From Bacteroidota bacterium (GTDB lineage: Bacteria > Bacteroidota > Bacteroidia > Cytophagales > Cyclobacteriaceae), in assembly GCA_018266395.1 (NCBI GenBank), contig JAFEAM010000026.1, positions 1 to 64,000 on the forward strand: a stretch of DNA of 64,000 nucleotides, in the 5' to 3' direction. This document shows, piece by piece, positions 1 through 6,788 of this stretch; the first letter of the stretch is position 1; each line of letters opens with the position of its first letter. Position numbers and translations under genes: made by a program. The notes below the pieces were generated by a model, which saw only the letters and a program-made list of their open reading frames with translations, made no database searches and was not told the origin of the DNA.

Positions 1-4
1 GCTT

Positions 5-182
5 GCCGCTAACGTGAGTGCATGAGCCGTAGCGGGGTTTGGGAGGACTTGGCAATAGAGCGAAGCGGAATGTCAAGGCCGACCTGCTGCGACTTTGTCC
101 CACATGATAAATTTAAATAATGAAACCGAAACCGCAACCCAACACTGAACCCCCGCTATGGATCATGCACATTGTTGGCGGC
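5..182 (-). repeat. attC-like cassette recombination site, copy 1
   Basis: An imperfect palindrome of about 178 bp bounded by GCCGCTAAC (AAC at 11-13) and GTTGGCGGC (GTT at 174-176). The arms pair through a ~19-nt stem (TGCATGAGCC then TAGCGGGG), with two mismatches in this copy. Between the AAC/GTT boxes and the stem are unpaired spacers of 5 nt on one arm and 4 nt on the other. The central ~110 bp forms the loop and holds a smaller stem, CTTGGCA against TGTCAAG. Near-identical copies lie at 667-844 and 1306-1484. The stop codon of the gene at 163-657 lies inside the right arm. The array probably continues left of the window, which cannot be seen. Confidence 0.75.
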
Positions 183-657
183 AGTTAATGTTCCCCAATT
201 TGAATTCATTGACAAAGTCCCTTTCCATTTTCTTTTTTTGAAAGTTGACTATTAAAATCGGACTGAACATTAAAAGTCCAAATGCGTTGAAAATTATTCT
301 CTCCACTGTCGGAAAAAATGTCGGGTTTTTCAGAATTGCCCAGTTGATTATCACAAGTGCTATGATCGGAAAAACTCTAAGCCAAATGTGTCCGAACCAA
401 ATTGGTTTGATTTTGTAATTTAATTCAGTTCCGTCTGCTGTTGAATTGTAAGTCCCCTCTATTATATAAGGTGTCGGCAATAAAGATGTGTTTTTAGTGA
501 GTTCAAAAGTCGTTGAGTCAAACTCCCCGAGGAATGGTTTTGAAGAGTTATTTATCGCTGTCACATAAAACGGTGTCCCCATTATTTTGGGGTCGCCTGT
601 CACAGTTAGTTCTCTTAGTCGAGCTTCAATATTGTCAATTGTCAACTGAGTCTTCAT
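163..657 (-). CDS. Cassette gene: hypothetical two-helix membrane protein
   Basis: A 164-residue protein of no family I recognise. Residues 1-85 are soluble and polar. Two hydrophobic segments follow, at about 90-108 (FPIIALVIINWAIL) and 120-138 (IFNAFGLLMFSPILIV), then a basic, charged tail. There is no signal peptide, so the N-terminal part is probably cytosolic or periplasmic and anchored by a helical hairpin. The last residues, CRQQCA, and the stop are encoded by the neighbouring palindrome. The start at 657 lies only about ten bases from the upstream palindrome, so the cassette is almost entirely coding. AT content is visibly higher than in the flanking chromosome, which fits mobile cargo. 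Function unknown. Confidence 0.6.
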   Translation of the reverse strand: MKTQLTIDNIEARLRELTVTGDPKIMGTPFYVTAINNSSKPFLGEFDSTTFELTKNTSLLPTPYIIEGTYNSTADGTELNYKIKPIWFGHIWLRVFPIIALVIINWAILKNPTFFPTVERIIFNAFGLLMFSPILIVNFQKKKMERDFVNEFKLGNINCRQQCA

Positions 658-666
658 ACATTAATT

Positions 667-844
667 GCCGCCAACGTGAGTGCATGAGCCGTAGCGGGGT
701 TTAGGAGGACTTGGCAATGGAGCGAAGCGGAATGCCAAGGCCGACCTGCTGCGACTTGTCCCACGTGATAAATTTAAATAGTGAAACCGAAACTACAACG
801 CTACACCGAACCCCCGCTATGGCTCATGCACATTGTTGGCTGCC
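667..844 (-). repeat. attC-like cassette recombination site, copy 2
   Basis: Second copy of the ~178-bp palindrome, with AAC at 673-675 and GTT at 835-837. The internal stem CTTGGCA/TGCCAAG is perfect here. The outermost bases differ between its two ends: GCCGCC on the left, GGCTGCC on the right. The left end therefore pairs with the right end of copy 1 and not with its own right end. That pattern is what arises if crossover occurs at G^TT and the following bases travel with the next cassette. Confidence 0.75.
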
Positions 845-1293
845 GTATTCTTTCTCGTCCTTTTTTTTGTAATCCTAAACTTCAAATACTTAGCTCTAAT
901 TTGCCCGTGTTTTGTGTTTAAATGTCCAAATCCGTTGTTATTTTCTTCGTAGATTCCCTTGGTCGTTACAATAGCGTCATATTTCCAATAGTTGTTGAAA
1001 AGTTTTCTCATTCTCCAGCTAACAAGGAAGCTTTTCCAAGAGTCGTAATAGTCGTCAAGATTTAAATATACGTCACCGTCCAGTCGGCAAGAATCCAAAC
1101 CTCGTGCACTCCAATATTCTTCAACTCCAGAATAAATCAATTTTGTCTTTATTAATTTGTCCCTGTTATTACTCAACTCGCAAAAGTCAACCGTCTTAGC
1201 TTTTTTAAGATTTCCATGTCCCACAGTACGAACGGGTATCAAAGAACACGATGTCAAAATGATGGTCAGTATACTTAAAATAGTTCTTGTCAT
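817..1293 (-). CDS. Cassette gene: hypothetical lipoprotein
   Basis: A 158-residue protein starting at 1293 (MTRTILSILTI). A longer reading frame runs upstream into the palindrome at 1306-1484, but those residues are repeat-derived and I discard them. Residues 1-16 form a short hydrophobic signal ending in a lipobox-like LTSC, so the product is probably a lipoprotein. The mature part is rich in Tyr, Trp, Asp and Lys and has a repeated-looking YDSW/YWKYD pattern but no domain I recognise. The C-terminus AANNVHEP and its stop are encoded by the adjacent palindrome, in a different frame from the other two cassette genes. Cargo of the integron-like array; function unknown. Confidence 0.55.
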   Translation of the reverse strand: MTRTILSILTIILTSCSLIPVRTVGHGNLKKAKTVDFCELSNNRDKLIKTKLIYSGVEEYWSARGLDSCRLDGDVYLNLDDYYDSWKSFLVSWRMRKLFNNYWKYDAIVTTKGIYEENNNGFGHLNTKHGQIRAKYLKFRITKKRTRKNTAANNVHEP

Positions 1294-1305
1294 GTCCCGG
1301 AATAT

Positions 1306-1484
1306 GGCAGCCAACGTGAGTGCATGAGCCGTAGCGGGGTTTAGGAGGACTTGGAAATGGAGCGAAGCGGAATGCCAAGGCCGACCTGCTGCGACTTGTC
1401 CCACGTGATAAATTTAATTAATGAAACCGAAACTATAACGCAACACTGAACCCCCGCTATGGCTCATGCACATTGTTGGCTGCC
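1306..1484 (-). repeat. attC-like cassette recombination site, copy 3
   Basis: Third copy, nearest the recombinase, with AAC at 1313-1315 and GTT at 1475-1477. The left end is GGCAGCC and the right end GGCTGCC. The internal stem has one mismatch (CTTGGAA). The spacing from AAC to GTT is 165 bp, against 165 and 166 bp in copies 2 and 1, so length is conserved while sequence drifts slightly. It follows the cassette gene at 1464-1805 on the reverse strand, the order expected of gene then attC. Confidence 0.75.
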
Positions 1485-1805
1485 GTTGCTTCTTTGTAGT
1501 CCCTCTTTTGCGATGTCGCGAGGTTTCTGTCGTCTCAATTTTATTTTAAGAAATTTTTCGTCCCTAATTTTTATTGTCCGGAAGCGGTGTCCATAAGCAC
1601 CGACAAAAATTGTCCTGTCATTTGTCGTGAGTGTTAACTCAAACTCTCCTTTTTCATTTGTCAACAATTCTTTGTCCGTCCCAAGTTCAGTTACTGTCGC
1701 GCCCGAAATTGGTCCCTTCCTGTCATAAACAACGCCTTTAATTGTCGTCTGTCCAAAGGATATCAAGCTAATCAGTAGTCCAAAAAATAATGTCAGAAAT
1801 TTCAT
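1464..1805 (-). CDS. Cassette gene: exported carboxypeptidase-regulatory-like domain protein
   Basis: A 113-residue protein starting MKFLTLFFGLLISL, a clear Sec signal ending near SFGQ (residue ~19). The mature part begins TTIKGVVYDRKGPISGATV and continues with TNEKGEFELTL, which is the pattern of the carboxypeptidase regulatory-like beta-sandwich found at the N-terminus of many Bacteroidota outer-membrane proteins. Here the domain stands alone. The C-terminus SNGSQQCA is supplied by the adjacent palindrome. It is the first cassette after the recombinase and so the most recently inserted if the array works like an integron. A longer frame starting upstream crosses the half-site at 1830 and is unlikely to be used. 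Confidence 0.65.
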   Translation of the reverse strand: MKFLTLFFGLLISLISFGQTTIKGVVYDRKGPISGATVTELGTDKELLTNEKGEFELTLTTNDRTIFVGAYGHRFRTIKIRDEKFLKIKLRRQKPRDIAKEGLQRSNGSQQCA

Positions 1806-1829
1806 GTTACAAAGTTGTCCCGAAGCAAT

Positions 1830-1906
1830 GGCAGCCAACAACTTTGTATCGGTATTGCTGATATAAACCTTTTGTGGTAATGTACAGCAATCCGCATAAT
1901 TGTCGT
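1830..1906 (-). other. Candidate attI-like primary insertion site
   Basis: GGCAGCCAAC at 1830-1839 is identical to the left end of copy 3 (1306-1315), but after the AAC the sequence departs completely and no palindrome follows. This is the junction expected where the first cassette joins the primary site. Between it and the recombinase stop codon lie ~67 bp containing an inverted repeat, ATTGCTG (1854-1860) and CAGCAAT (1885-1891), a possible recombinase-binding pair. The assignment rests on position and on the shared core. Confidence 0.5.
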
Positions 1907-3052
1907 CTAAAGGTCAATTTCCATATTTTCCAGCGGACTGACAATTCCGGAAAGATTTTTGGTAGAAACGTGAGTGTAGATTTCTGTGGTCTTCGGGGAG
2001 GTGTGCCCCAAGGCTGTCTGTATGTACCGCAAATCAATCCCTGCCTCGAGACTGTGGGTCGCAAAGGAATGTCGTAAGGTGTGCGGCGAAACGGCCTGCC
2101 GGATGCCGGCACGATCTGCACTGTGCTTGACGATGTTTTGCACACTCTTGGCACTGTAAGGTCCACCCCGCTGTCCCTCAAAAAGAAACTCCTCAGGTTT
2201 GTACTCCTTGATGTACCGGTCTATCAGCGCAATGGTCTTTGGCCCGAGAACGGTGTGCCGGTCCTTTTTCCCCTTGCCTTGTTTGACCAACAATAGGTTG
2301 CGCTCTCTTTTCAGGTCGATCAGACGCAAATCAATAAGCTCCGATAGCCGCAGTCCGCAGGAATATAGTGTGGTCAGAATGGTTCTGTGCTTCAAATTCT
2401 CGGTGTTCTGGATCATCGCCTGCACCTCTTCCTTGCTTAACACGGTGGGGAGCTTCTGCTCTTTCCTGGGCCTTTCAATATCGTAAAAGCGCTGAGGCAT
2501 ATTCAACACTTGCTCGTAGTAGAATTTAATAGCGTTGATCGCCTGGTTTTGCAGTGAAGCGGAACGTCCTATCTGGACCAAATGACGCGAGTAGGCGCGG
2601 ATATCCAATTCATCGATTTGGTTCAGCTCCTTTTCAGGGAAGTGATTAATGAACTCGGTGAACTGGGTGATGTAGGTTCTCGCTGTATTCAGACTGTAAC
2701 GCTTTGTCTCCAGCAAAGCGACGTATGCATCGGGACATGCTTTTCTCCCCGGTTTGGCAGGTATCTTCTTCAGCGTGGTCATATCCACAGGATCCGCATC
2801 GGGGCGGATGGGACGATTTCTGAAGAAATACTTTCCTTCCACCCACGCTACACCCCGGAAGGTGTTGAATAGCAATGTCAGGTTTTCACGACTGTTGATG
2901 AGGTGGTGCATGCGGTTCTCTTCCGACCAAGCGATCCCGGGCAGACGGTCTACCAGCGCCTGGATGACCTTGTTGGGATGGAATTGCAGCCCGATGTGGG
3001 CTTCCCCCGATATCATAAGATGACGCAGTGTGACCGGTGGTAAAGTAGTCAT
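1907..3052 (-). CDS. Tyrosine recombinase of the integron-like array
   Basis: A 381-residue site-specific recombinase. The C-terminal half carries the full catalytic set: Arg235 (SCGLRLSE), Lys260 in the beta-hairpin (GKGKKDR), His324 and Arg327 (PHTLRHSFATH), His350 (LGHTS) and the nucleophile Tyr359 (IYTHVS). A SAM-like core-binding domain spans about 105-190. Residues 1-~95 are an N-terminal region longer than in XerC/D or IntI. The tail after the tyrosine (SGIVSPLENM) resembles the IntI tail, but the ~35-residue insertion that marks canonical integron integrases between the lysine hairpin and the HxxR motif appears absent by eye. The gene reads towards the cassette array, in the same orientation as the cargo, as in integrons with an inverted integrase. 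It probably inserts and excises the cassettes. Confidence 0.85.
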   Translation of the reverse strand: MTTLPPVTLRHLMISGEAHIGLQFHPNKVIQALVDRLPGIAWSEENRMHHLINSRENLTLLFNTFRGVAWVEGKYFFRNRPIRPDADPVDMTTLKKIPAKPGRKACPDAYVALLETKRYSLNTARTYITQFTEFINHFPEKELNQIDELDIRAYSRHLVQIGRSASLQNQAINAIKFYYEQVLNMPQRFYDIERPRKEQKLPTVLSKEEVQAMIQNTENLKHRTILTTLYSCGLRLSELIDLRLIDLKRERNLLLVKQGKGKKDRHTVLGPKTIALIDRYIKEYKPEEFLFEGQRGGPYSAKSVQNIVKHSADRAGIRQAVSPHTLRHSFATHSLEAGIDLRYIQTALGHTSPKTTEIYTHVSTKNLSGIVSPLENMEIDL

Positions 3053-3693: not shown

Positions 3694-4026
3694 TCAACTC
3701 AACAACTGCTTGATTTCATTTTCAAGATCAGGAAGATTTCTTGTAACGATTCCCCAAAGAATGTCTTCTGATACGGAATCATAACCATGAACGATTCTGT
3801 TTCTGGTATCGACAATCTTTCGGGTGTGGCTAATCTTGATTCCAGGATCAGCCTTGAGGATCCGACTCATTGCCTCTCCAATAATCTCGATGTTTCGTTC
3901 CACCGCCCTCCTGGTCCTTAAGTCCTTTTGAAAGTCCTTGAAGTTTTTTGTTTGGGGTATGAATGAATTAATTTCTGAGATTGCTTGCTCAATGTCCTTT
4001 AGCCACGTCTTGACTTCATTGTCCAT
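3694..4026 (-). CDS. hepT: HepT-like ribonuclease toxin (DUF86)
   Basis: A 110-residue all-alpha protein with the HEPN RNase motif R-x4-H-x-Y seen as RNRIVHGY at about residues 76-83. It is the usual length for HepT. In this family the HEPN dimer cleaves RNA and is silenced by its MntA partner, which adds AMP to the tyrosine of the motif. The partner gene lies immediately upstream and overlaps it by 11 bp, so the two are co-translated with the antitoxin first. Motif and arrangement both support the call. Confidence 0.85.
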   Translation of the reverse strand: MDNEVKTWLKDIEQAISEINSFIPQTKNFKDFQKDLRTRRAVERNIEIIGEAMSRILKADPGIKISHTRKIVDTRNRIVHGYDSVSEDILWGIVTRNLPDLENEIKQLLS

Positions 4027-4318
4027 AGATGAGAACTTTTGACTTGTCGATATTCTCCCTAAGGAATGGGTTCTTGATCGCTCTGTTTTCCAGAAGGTCT
4101 ATTGACCGGTTCAGGATGCGTTCAAGTTCAAATTTCAATTCAAAATAATTGTCGGTATATTCAATGGGGTCATCCGTTACAAAGTCGACCATCAAATCAA
4201 TGTCACTTTCCCTGGTAAATCTCGCTGTGTTAACAGAACCGAATGAATACAGGCTTTTGACTTTGTGATTCCTGCAAAGTCTCTGAATTTGATCTTTGTA
4301 TGTCTCAATCAAGCCCAT
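4016..4318 (-). CDS. mntA: MntA-like nucleotidyltransferase antitoxin
   Basis: A 100-residue minimal nucleotidyltransferase. The signature GS-x10-DxD is present as GSVNTARFTRESDID, followed by LMVDF and a helix-rich tail. Known MntA proteins use ATP to AMPylate HepT and so neutralise it. I place the start at 4318 (MGLIETYKDQ): the open frame continues upstream to 4567, but that stretch has no similarity to the family and runs through low-complexity intergenic repeats. It overlaps the toxin gene by 11 bp. Confidence 0.82.
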   Translation of the reverse strand: MGLIETYKDQIQRLCRNHKVKSLYSFGSVNTARFTRESDIDLMVDFVTDDPIEYTDNYFELKFELERILNRSIDLLENRAIKNPFLRENIDKSKVLIYGQ

Positions 4319-4505
4319 ACGCAAAATTAAGGATTTTCCGTGTCCCGATTCTTTGATCGCTGGCAATGGCGCGAGGAAAACAGTACGGTGAAGTCTGGTT
4401 TTCGCCTGGAGAACGACAATGCCGGGGTCTTCCAGGTAGCGGGTCCTTAATCGTCCCTGCCGGAGCTGATAACTATTTAGTAGTAGTGTCCAACCGTTTA
4501 CAAGG

Positions 4506-4549
4506 TTCCTGTAAGTCCACATAAGGTTCACATAAGGTATTTGTAAGGA
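4506..4549. repeat. Four tandem 11-bp units (CACATAAGGT type)
   Basis: Consecutive units TTCCTGTAAGT, CCACATAAGGT, TCACATAAGGT and ATTTGTAAGGA keep an exact 11-bp period, about one helical turn. They lie ~190 bp upstream of the MntA/HepT pair. A related set with the same period and a TATAAGGT core lies at 28942-28985 beside the second toxin-antitoxin pair. Regular protein-binding sites or simple repeat slippage would both fit. Confidence 0.6.
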
Positions 4550-4824
4550 TGTTTGCCGGATAAACAAGCTTGTTTACCGGATCTGTAAGGATGGTTGAGG
4601 GATGCGAAGCCCCAAAACCTGGGTCTGTTGAGATCTGAAATCTGAAATCCTGAGATTGAATGTAGAATGTTGAACAAGGAATTCTGAATGTCGAAGTGGC
4701 AGCAGACATATGAGGAAATTCCAGGTGAACGTATGGACAAGACTGAAAATCCTACGGATACTTCTGGACATCGACTAAAGTATGTGGCTCGGTTGAGATT
4801 TGAAATCTGACATCTTGAATCATT

Positions 4825-5057: not shown

Positions 5058-6788
5058 CTACTGATGTTTGCTGAATTTCAGATTTCGTCCGCCCCAATTG
5101 CTTACCTTCATGCCATCAACCTTACCCTTGCTGTCGCGGACGAAGGTGACCTTCTCCATAAACCACATACTGCTATTAAAGATATCCGGGCCCTTGGGTA
5201 TGAGTTTGATGTCATCATGACGCTGGTGCTGCGCGGTCAGTGTGTCGTTTGCAACGATCATGGTGTATGCCGTCTGCAATTCGTCGCTGTAAAATGTTCC
5301 GCCGTAGTCTTGAAGACGTATCGATCCTTTGTCAAATGACGGTTCACTCTGCTCTTCCTTTTTCGGTTCTTGTTTCTTCGGAGGATCGTTCCCCAACTTG
5401 TCTCTAAGAAAACGGTTGGCAATGAGATAGCTGGTACCTCCTGCATTGAAAGAGGCCAGGTTGCTGAACACCGAGATTGAAAGATGTTGGTCCGGAAATC
5501 GCAACAAGAAGGTGCGATAACCTGCATCGCTTCCACTATGGCTGATGGTCTCTAATCCTTTGTATTGTCTGATCCAGTGACCAAACGCGTAATCAATCGT
5601 ATCACCTTTGTTCAACACAAACCGTTGGTTCATCATTTTCATTACGTGTTCATTGCCTACTGTCATCTTGTCAAAGTTGGTCGCCCAAAGTCCCAGGTCA
5701 TCAACTGTGGTAAAGAGGCTGGTGGCGCCGACGTTCGCATAGCTCAGGACGCTTTTCTTGAATCCTTTCGGTGTTACATGATAAGAGTAGGCGCGATTGG
5801 GCACGATCTTTTCGTGGTCATTGTAGAACAGGGTGTGGTCCATGTGAAGCGGCTTGAAAATGTTTTCCATCGTCCAGTCAGGGAATGACTGACCGCTCAC
5901 ACGACTGACGATCTCAGCCATCAATGTAAAGCCGGTATTACAATAGTGGTATTCATCACCAGGATTAAAATTCAGTTCACGCTGGCGGCTCACGACGCGC
6001 ATGATCTGGTTCTGGGTGATCACATCGTCCAGCCGCCAGCCGGCCAGCGCCAATAAGTTCCACTGATCGCGGAGACCGCTTGTGTGATGAACTAGGTGAT
6101 TGATAGTGATCGGCGTTCCGAAGTCGTGCATCTCAGGCAAATACTTCCTGATGTCATCATCCAGCGAAATCTTTCCTTGATCAACAAGCATCGCAATGGC
6201 GAATGAAGTGAATTGTTTAGATACGGAGGCAATGTGGAAAATTGTTTTGCTTGTAATGGGTATGTCATATTGGAGATCTGCATATCCGAAGCCGGAAGTG
6301 TAAACCAACTGACCGTCTTTGACGACAGACACCGCTGCCCCGGGTCGTTTGCCGGTGCCCGCAAGTACTTTCAACAGTTGATCAGTGGCCTGAACAGGAT
6401 CAGCAGGAATGGGGTCGACACTGTTGACCATAATTGTATAATTGCCCGGCTTATCCTCCAATGGAGCAACCACGATCTCGTACTCACCGGCAGTTTTGGT
6501 TTCAAAGTAGAATGGCTCTTCCCCCGTGGCTGGTCCGTCGAAGTGGAGCGTTTCCGGACCTCCCAATATGGTAATGGCCACATCCACAGTTTGCTGGTCT
6601 GCTTTGCCGGCAACAAATGCATTCTTGTCCAATTGAAGCCTGAATGTGTCAGCCTGGTGGACCTTCAACGTCCGCATCTGTAGGATCCCGGTCTTAAGGT
6701 CAGAATTTCCTTCGTCCAACAACGACACCTGCTTGCGAGAGCAGGTCATAGAACACAAGGCAAGAGCAATCGCAACTAAGGTTTTCAT
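5058..6788 (-). CDS. Exported beta-lactamase-fold serine hydrolase (lipoprotein)
   Basis: A 576-residue protein starting at 6788 (MKTLVAIALA), with signal and lipobox SMTC giving a mature Cys near residue 16; two earlier start codons would only lengthen the signal. Residues ~40-125 form a beta-rich domain resembling the pre-peptidase C-terminal type. From ~135 comes a class C beta-lactamase/D-aminopeptidase fold with SVSK (S188-K191), YCN (Y282) and HSG (H417), the three motifs of the active site. The family cleaves D-peptides, esters or peptidoglycan stems; the substrate here is unknown. It sits between two blocks of REP-like palindromes. It is one of three such hydrolases in the window (also 9139-10911 and 31484-32737). 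Confidence 0.85.
   Translation of the reverse strand: MKTLVAIALALCSMTCSRKQVSLLDEGNSDLKTGILQMRTLKVHQADTFRLQLDKNAFVAGKADQQTVDVAITILGGPETLHFDGPATGEEPFYFETKTAGEYEIVVAPLEDKPGNYTIMVNSVDPIPADPVQATDQLLKVLAGTGKRPGAAVSVVKDGQLVYTSGFGYADLQYDIPITSKTIFHIASVSKQFTSFAIAMLVDQGKISLDDDIRKYLPEMHDFGTPITINHLVHHTSGLRDQWNLLALAGWRLDDVITQNQIMRVVSRQRELNFNPGDEYHYCNTGFTLMAEIVSRVSGQSFPDWTMENIFKPLHMDHTLFYNDHEKIVPNRAYSYHVTPKGFKKSVLSYANVGATSLFTTVDDLGLWATNFDKMTVGNEHVMKMMNQRFVLNKGDTIDYAFGHWIRQYKGLETISHSGSDAGYRTFLLRFPDQHLSISVFSNLASFNAGGTSYLIANRFLRDKLGNDPPKKQEPKKEEQSEPSFDKGSIRLQDYGGTFYSDELQTAYTMIVANDTLTAQHQRHDDIKLIPKGPDIFNSSMWFMEKVTFVRDSKGKVDGMKVSNWGGRNLKFSKHQ

Follow-up and report, generated by a model that had tools for sequence, protein, structure and literature searches.

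In canonical integrons, a tyrosine recombinase, IntI, adjoins an array of single-gene cassettes with hairpin sites, attC, whose outer boxes read RYYYAAC and GTTRRRY, and an attI site lies beside the recombinase. Integron integrases are already known in the Bacteroidetes/Chlorobi group, according to the portions of two reports that concern them (PMC2426708, PMC9668308), and for Bacteroidetes proper the relevant part of the IntegronFinder 2.0 paper gives In0 elements and one complete integron, in Salinibacter ruber (PMC9024848). In Riemerella anatipestifer, the gene aph(3')-IVb entered the chromosome without homology, always with 27 bp of 5' and 140 bp of 3' sequence; the sections of this 2026 study that treat the insertion mention an attC-like fold in the 140-bp 3' region, name no enzyme, and cite lnu(H) and blaRATA alongside aph(3')-IVb for homology-independent insertion (PMC13148043). 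On Acinetobacter plasmids, the passages of two papers devoted to it describe the arrangement xerD-tet(X3)-res-orf1-ISVsa3 (PMC7494873, PMC7473080). Here we analyse a 64,000-nucleotide stretch of a Bacteroidota genome of the family Cyclobacteriaceae (assembly GCA_018266395.1, contig JAFEAM010000026.1, positions 1 to 64,000; hereafter the window), in which a tyrosine recombinase and a row of hairpin-bounded cassettes very probably form a gene-cassette capture platform working like an integron, as judged from sequence comparisons.

An earlier note, made from the letters of the window, had described three single-gene cassettes in one orientation beside a complete tyrosine recombinase, and we confirmed this with coordinates on the minus strand. 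The array lies 3' of the recombinase, runs in the same direction and is truncated, because the window begins at base 1 of its contig (C18; the host genome comprises 4.43 Mb in 56 contigs). Its parts are as follows, with start codons of the three cassette genes chosen by us.

1907..3052, minus strand: tyrosine recombinase, 381 amino acids (gene call, profile matches, alignment and AlphaFold model).
1837..1906, minus strand: attI-like stretch from the recombinase stop to the first cassette, with the first GTT at 1839-1837 (GTTGGCTGCC) (sequence, and analogy with attI-like palindromes of related loci).
1316..1839, minus strand: cassette 1, with complementary ends GTTGGCTGCC and GGCAGCCAAC.
1464..1805, minus strand: cassette 1 gene, 113 amino acids, CarboxypepD_reg-like domain.
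1313..1477, minus strand: attC-like hairpin site 1 (stem scan and site model R1, described below).
676..1315, minus strand: cassette 2.
817..1293, minus strand: cassette 2 gene, 158 amino acids from the ATG at 1293.
673..837, minus strand: attC-like hairpin site 2 (stem scan and R1).
14..675, minus strand: cassette 3.
163..657, minus strand: cassette 3 gene, 164 amino acids.
11..176, minus strand: attC-like hairpin site 3 (stem scan and R1); the contig ends within the next cassette (GTTAGCGGCAAG..).

The end of the recombinase gene (1907) is separated by 67 nt from the first cassette start. No Pfam family matched the cassette 3 product, nor the first 142 residues of the cassette 2 product.

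A stem scan of the window found exactly three palindromes, and none in three mononucleotide shuffles. Their length had been put at about 178 bp; they span 165-166 bp from AAC to GTT, and the repeated unit including the outer boxes is 183 nt. The proposed attC plan of AAC/GTT boxes, unequal spacers, long stem and large loop held, with spacers of 3 and 4 nt and a large loop enclosing an inner hairpin. From 16 short sites of the genus to which the window belongs (L065 and L068 excluded), we built a covariance model, R1, which was used throughout and whose E-values are rough; it spans AAC to GTT only, and the outer bases played no role in site detection. AAC and GTT were present in 120 of 122 sites, a figure that reflects the training of R1 on AAC..GTT. 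The core over 118 sites is approximately GTT-R-K-S-N-G-C-M-A-K, and only 6 of the 118 fitted the canonical GTTRRRY. The earlier note was thus right about the departure from GTTRRRY, but its motif, GTTRGCKGC, was too narrow. Other contigs of the same genome hold 22 full R1 matches at E up to 0.05 (eight on C37, five on C19, four on C9, three on C42 and two on C44; one partial C9 match excluded), and those on C19 adjoin a second recombinase that is 50% identical to the first over residues 106-380.

The stems covary strongly. In 31 long sites of the genus, 95.6% of stem cells were paired (72.5% when shuffled), changes were two-sided in 153 cases and one-sided in 1, and 13 of the 15 outer-stem pairs varied on both sides. 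Across 84 sites from many families, 92.1% of cells were paired, with 447 two-sided and 17 one-sided changes, values biased towards the model because the sites were aligned with it. RNA helices drift through G-U pairs; since the stem hardly shows such one-sided drift, selection on DNA palindromy is indicated, which points to a hairpin conserved as a DNA palindrome rather than an RNA helix. Interspersed palindromic repeats (like repetitive extragenic palindromic elements or miniature inverted-repeat transposable elements), terminators or structured RNA unrelated to capture could account for sites that are repetitive and lie directly after genes. However, besides the near absence of one-sided changes, the sites keep a fixed orientation beside one recombinase family, cassettes have complementary ends of their own between sites (see below), and no Rfam family matched at the sites, so that we find this explanation scarcely credible. 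Among the 4227 Rfam families searched, none reached its gathering score in the window; at E 0.1 in four array loci, the sole match was sroD (E 0.026, below its gathering score), away from the sites. A structured RNA family was rejected on these grounds.

The two strands of the hairpin are not equivalent. In most sites, the spacers measure 3-4 and 4-5 nt and the arms are asymmetric. With arms compared ungapped, an A.C mismatch occupied stem position 18 in 73 of 90 sites, and the 171 stem mismatches included 95 A.C and 2 C.A. Top-strand A.C mismatches are G.T on the bottom strand, and as in canonical integrons the bottom strand was the more stable: for arm hairpins in 78 of 90 sites, and for the whole site in 62 of 90, with 2 equal (Wilcoxon p 7e-6; 36 of 83 when shuffled). 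About 30 bp suffice for the simple binding site of a recombinase dimer. The alternative that the recombinase acts on double-stranded sites, each palindrome being two inverted binding sites of a cassette platform, gains from the attI-like sites, which resemble ordinary double-stranded inverted core sites, and from the absence in this enzyme of the insertion with which IntI acts on folded attC. Yet it is hard to square with such long hairpins, the two-sided variation of the outer stem, the conserved mismatch and the unequal spacers, and we consider it unlikely. The conserved mismatch stands where attC has bulged bases, which in canonical attC set strand choice, according to the part of the work that deals with them (PMC2727003); by analogy, the mismatches may take this role here.

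A unit that moves as a circle from one GTT to the next should have ends that match each other. We compared the six bases after GTT with the six before the next AAC and found that all six were complementary in 65 of the 90 intervals shorter than 4 kb, compared with 5 of 120 when the two sides of one site, from different cassettes, were compared, and 2.4% for shuffled partners; this first test omitted five partial site matches and two sites without exact AAC/GTT. A second set of 21 loci, fetched by the recombinase alone, gave 31 of 50 for own ends, 2 of 69 for the same site and 2.0% for shuffled partners. Palindromes without genes between them, which had been named as an observation that would speak against cassettes, were rare: 87 of the 90 intervals hold an open reading frame of at least 60 amino acids, the longest lying on the cassette strand in 80 and on the other strand in 7, and three hold none. 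In 57 intervals shorter than 1.5 kb with the gene on the cassette strand, the median start codon lay 33 nt past GTT and the stop 17 nt ahead of AAC. Complementary ends with start and stop codons near them are features shared with canonical integrons.

Cassette contents are diverse. Of 86 cassette proteins, 81 were searched (those of L222 and L223 were omitted), and these match 74 Pfam families; among the 25 families listed, 7 match two members and 18 match one, and a restriction enzyme, DNA methylase, Shedu, GmrSD and PemK are included. The GajB and SduA models of PADLOC also match cassette proteins. At L222, three different cassettes, at minus-strand positions 5277, 12802 and 14258, are nearly identical over the first ~127 nt after GTT.

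Sites follow the recombinase across loci. We scanned genome contigs for the recombinase and took the best 80 of 552 confirmed loci, whose titles, by our reading, comprise 78 Bacteroidota, one Rhodobacteraceae and one 'bacterium'. In these loci, fetched by the recombinase alone, R1 found 86 sites in 33, and all 86 lay downstream on the recombinase strand. Absence of the palindromes near relatives of the recombinase would, according to the earlier note, have counted against its reading; sites were present in 23 of the 31 loci with at least 5 kb of downstream DNA, and 12 of the 39 with at least 3 kb had none. A stem scan, which requires no training, found 40 sites downstream in 347 kb, some perhaps by chance, and 2 upstream in 704 kb. 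Contigs ended within 400 bp downstream of the recombinase in 17 of the 80 loci and within that distance upstream in none, as expected if repeat arrays break assembly.

The link also held across genomes. Among 198 genomes of the phylum, R1 matched 80, the recombinase was found in 69 (E 1e-45) and IntI exceeded its cut-off in 57. Sites and the recombinase co-occurred (both, site only, recombinase only and neither: 52/28/17/101; p 4e-13), whereas the counts for sites and canonical IntI were 17/63/40/78 (p 0.057, in the negative direction). Within the window's genus, palindrome DNA and recombinase were unassociated genome by genome (22/13/16/6). Canonical IntI is rare in the 49 genomes of the window's class or nearer, exceeding the cut-off in 1, while sites (29) and the recombinase (32) are common there; the 149 genomes of other classes gave 51 with sites, 37 with the recombinase and 56 with IntI. 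Canonical IntI might move these sites in trans, the adjacent recombinase being incidental, and this would suit the site-only clusters on C9, C37, C42 and C44 and on two Riemerella plasmids, as well as the 17 of 80 genomes with R1 matches that also hold IntI. However, sites and IntI showed no positive association in the 198 genomes, none of 39 relatives exceeds the IntI cut-off of TIGR02249, and a site was listed within 40 kb of 2 of 19 IntI genes compared with 25 of 83 new recombinases; we regard such action in trans as highly improbable. These distances rest on the 150 sites listed, and the 19 IntI genes come from the 17 genomes with R1 matches plus G132 and the below-cut-off G206. Canonical IntI arrays were rejected on the IntI score, the scores of relatives, the missing insertion and co-occurrence.

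Among those 25 recombinases, the array was downstream on the same strand in 20 and upstream in the opposite direction in 5, and no other layout occurred; in either case, the array extends away from the recombinase. The prevailing layout differs from that of canonical intI, which is usually divergent from its array. The five recombinases with upstream, opposite arrays have short open frames (246-319 amino acids), and this short form (L222, L223; G141, G274, G102) resembles the canonical arrangement. In G278 (L207-L211, G278:C1:3225539-3301449), sites begin 0.65 kb past the recombinase match and continue for 76 kb until the contig ends, with gaps between model matches of up to ~16 kb. On plasmids, four sites lie downstream of a Chryseobacterium recombinase annotated 'site-specific tyrosine recombinase/integron integrase', one accompanies a Persicobacter recombinase, and none was found on a Rufibacter plasmid that carries the recombinase.

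Between recombinase and array, many loci carry an attI-like site. A GTT of the cassette-start type lay 25-120 nt past the recombinase stop in 44 of the 80 loci (a GTT of the required pattern was missing in 32, and in 4 the contig was too short), and an inverted repeat with arms of up to 11 nt preceded it in 30 of these 44, compared with 7.3% of shuffles, mostly ending 5-7 nt ahead of the GTT. The window's own attI-like palindrome is weak. Four contigs (L075, L084, L090 and L116) end 43-52 nt past the stop codon of the recombinase, close to the attI-like GTT, which would fit a first cassette that differs between members of the sequenced population.

The recombinase had been judged not to look like canonical IntI, and profile and alignment bear this out. 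Its catalytic residues are R235, K260, H324, R327, H350 and Y359, and each is retained in 137-141 of 141 relatives. The C-terminal tail, SGIVSPLE, is of the type [SN]P[LVMI], found in 108 of 141 relatives, 10 of 10 IntI and 0 of 28 XerC/XerD, which have an HPR-like tail. In contrast to this likeness to IntI, the family lacks the IntI insertion: from the K box to HxLRH, the median is 58 residues (maximum 63) in 141 recombinases and 100 in 10 IntI, and XerC-like rows have 63 and XerD rows 66; an alignment with IntI4 shows the same gap (31 compared with 74 residues). TIGR02249, the IntI model, scores the recombinase at 209.1 bits in two stretches, below the cut-off of 265. It is also below the cut-offs of both Xer models, TIGR02224 (195.7 bits; cut-off 335.15) and TIGR02225 (205.2; 329.6), and barely over that of the XerA-like 'recombinase/integron integrase' model NF040815 (220.8; curated cut-off 220), a broad name that says nothing on function. 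By the tests that define the family, the system is integron-like and not a canonical integron, because the IntI cut-off is not reached, the IntI-specific domain is absent and few sites fit GTTRRRY.

A tree of 78 rows separated Xer from IntI plus the new family (100/100) and placed the new family in one group of its own (93/90); 'sister of IntI' is relative to the rows included, namely IntI from other classes of the phylum, XerC-like, XerD and the new family. Because the same genome encodes a separate XerD that exceeds the cut-off as well as another protein, which is XerC-like (our label for the second TIGR02225 match), and the tree splits Xer rows off, the window recombinase is not the Xer of its host. 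Fold and catalytic core are nevertheless common to it, XerC/XerD and archaeal XerA. The AlphaFold model (predicted local distance difference test score 87.4) gave as best Foldseek match the integron integrase-attC complex 2a3v (E 2.7e-18), while VIA-align ranked XerA 5hxy first and 2a3v second. Also unlike IntI, the window recombinase and most family members have an N-terminal extension of ~100 amino acids; in the long form (window 1907-3052), residues 1-100 appear as an extra alpha/beta domain, a region scarcely reached by the VIA-align rows. Under the title of a Rhodobacteraceae metagenome-assembled genome (L142), a recombinase with 41% identity is accompanied by an attI-like palindrome, through either transfer or a binning error.

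Shared segments suggest that cassettes move. Among 40 of 50 matches listed between arrays, a 221-nt piece starting at GTT is 99.1% identical in the window's genus and another class (G001 and G154; L022/L219), a segment starting at GTT is 85.5% identical over 685 nt in G278 and G023, and duplicates starting at GTT comprise a cassette on C19 and a tandem copy in G148; some shared segments do not respect cassette boundaries (for example, a 1.24-kb repeat in G152). tet(X) of an Empedobacter plasmid and tet(X2) of a Bacteroides fragilis plasmid represent one and the same cassette: over the first 1324 nt, counted from GTT, the two copies show 3 mismatches, and their flanks differ. The Empedobacter copy has the own ends GTTATGTGCC and GGCACATAAC, from which the B. 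fragilis copy differs by one base, and the two hairpin sites score R1 E 1.2e-5 and 8e-5. With tet(X) and 100 nt of flank as query, homology stopped at 1430-1434, where the site GTT is 1428-1430, in all 12 listed records reaching it (H72-H83); on the left, three begin at 99-101 (first GTT 101), eight share the left flank and one begins inside. These 12, which need not be independent, are among 40 of 298 records listed, and 27 other listed rows, mostly tet(X4) of enterobacteria, align only over 135-1307, reaching neither end. The tet(X) site had no match among phages. tet(X)/tet(X2) is packaged as a cassette, apparently moving as a unit. Arrays assembled in the past with a now idle recombinase would be consistent with the stop found in some recombinase matches, but the retained catalytic residues, the nearly identical piece shared across classes and the closeness of the tet(X) copies in different contexts make such a relic very unlikely.

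The two tet(X) copies differ in two spacer letters (L260 1481-1482, L261 5332-5333) just before the C-GTT of the site, as though exchange took place a few bases ahead of GTT. tet(X)-type genes in cassettes of Bacteroidota plasmids, or in the Acinetobacter tet(X3) context, were seen at L256 5052-7160, L260 157-1486, L261 3719-5337, L262 and L263. In Acinetobacter, the product of 'xerD' is related to the window recombinase but shortened (50% identical over residues 143-379), and as in the window's system an attI-like palindrome and the cassette-start motif GTTATGTGCCAT precede tet(X3). Unlike a full cassette, only the first site arm follows the gene, which is carried with an IS91-like element. 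Two Riemerella plasmids carry five and two sites in one orientation among resistance genes, with no relative of the recombinase found on either. The chromosomal Riemerella unit described in the cited study fits the cassette geometry here (start ~33 nt past GTT; 17 nt plus a ~123-nt site), although the parts of that study on this one gene in one species identify no recombinase, attI or array family (PMC13148043).

In the capture platform that we propose, the recombinase would excise cassettes as circles at GTT, and the circles would be inserted at the attI-like site beside the recombinase gene or at the site of another cassette. The recombinase would recognise the hairpin in folded, single-stranded form, and probably on the bottom strand, because the conserved top-strand A.C mismatches become G.T pairs there. 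We infer from these patterns the catalytic activity of this recombinase, its recognition of single strands and the function of the mismatches. The cassette-capture reading of the earlier note, framed for Bacteroidota, gains support and is to be extended to a system found phylum-wide. We further think it probable, with less confidence than in the platform itself, that this is a second, phylum-wide integron class in Bacteroidota, in which a sister family of IntI acts on folded single strands without the IntI insertion, tells strands apart by A.C/G.T mismatches, and serves as the capture engine behind tet(X)-like resistance cassettes and as the missing enzyme of the homology-free insertions in Riemerella. 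It is plausible that standard integron finders miss it. In the open-licence PubMed Central literature, we found no description of this pairing of recombinase and site and no name for the recombinase family; the nearest was the Riemerella study (PMC13148043).

A phylum-wide platform with its own recombinase, if true, would represent a large, so far unread reservoir of mobile genes, including restriction, toxin and other defence families, and could show, as a natural experiment, what the IntI insertion does. It would also provide a lead on the mechanism of homology-free insertion of resistance genes in Riemerella (PMC13148043) and on whether 'XerD' moves tet(X), a question raised by the authors in the discussion of that element (PMC7473080). 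Surveillance tools could search for these sites.

Just past the recombinase, the window encodes a HepT-like RNase (3694-4026, PF01934) and an open reading frame that by eye is nucleotidyltransferase-like (4016-4567), which together look like a toxin-antitoxin pair of the HepT/MntA type.

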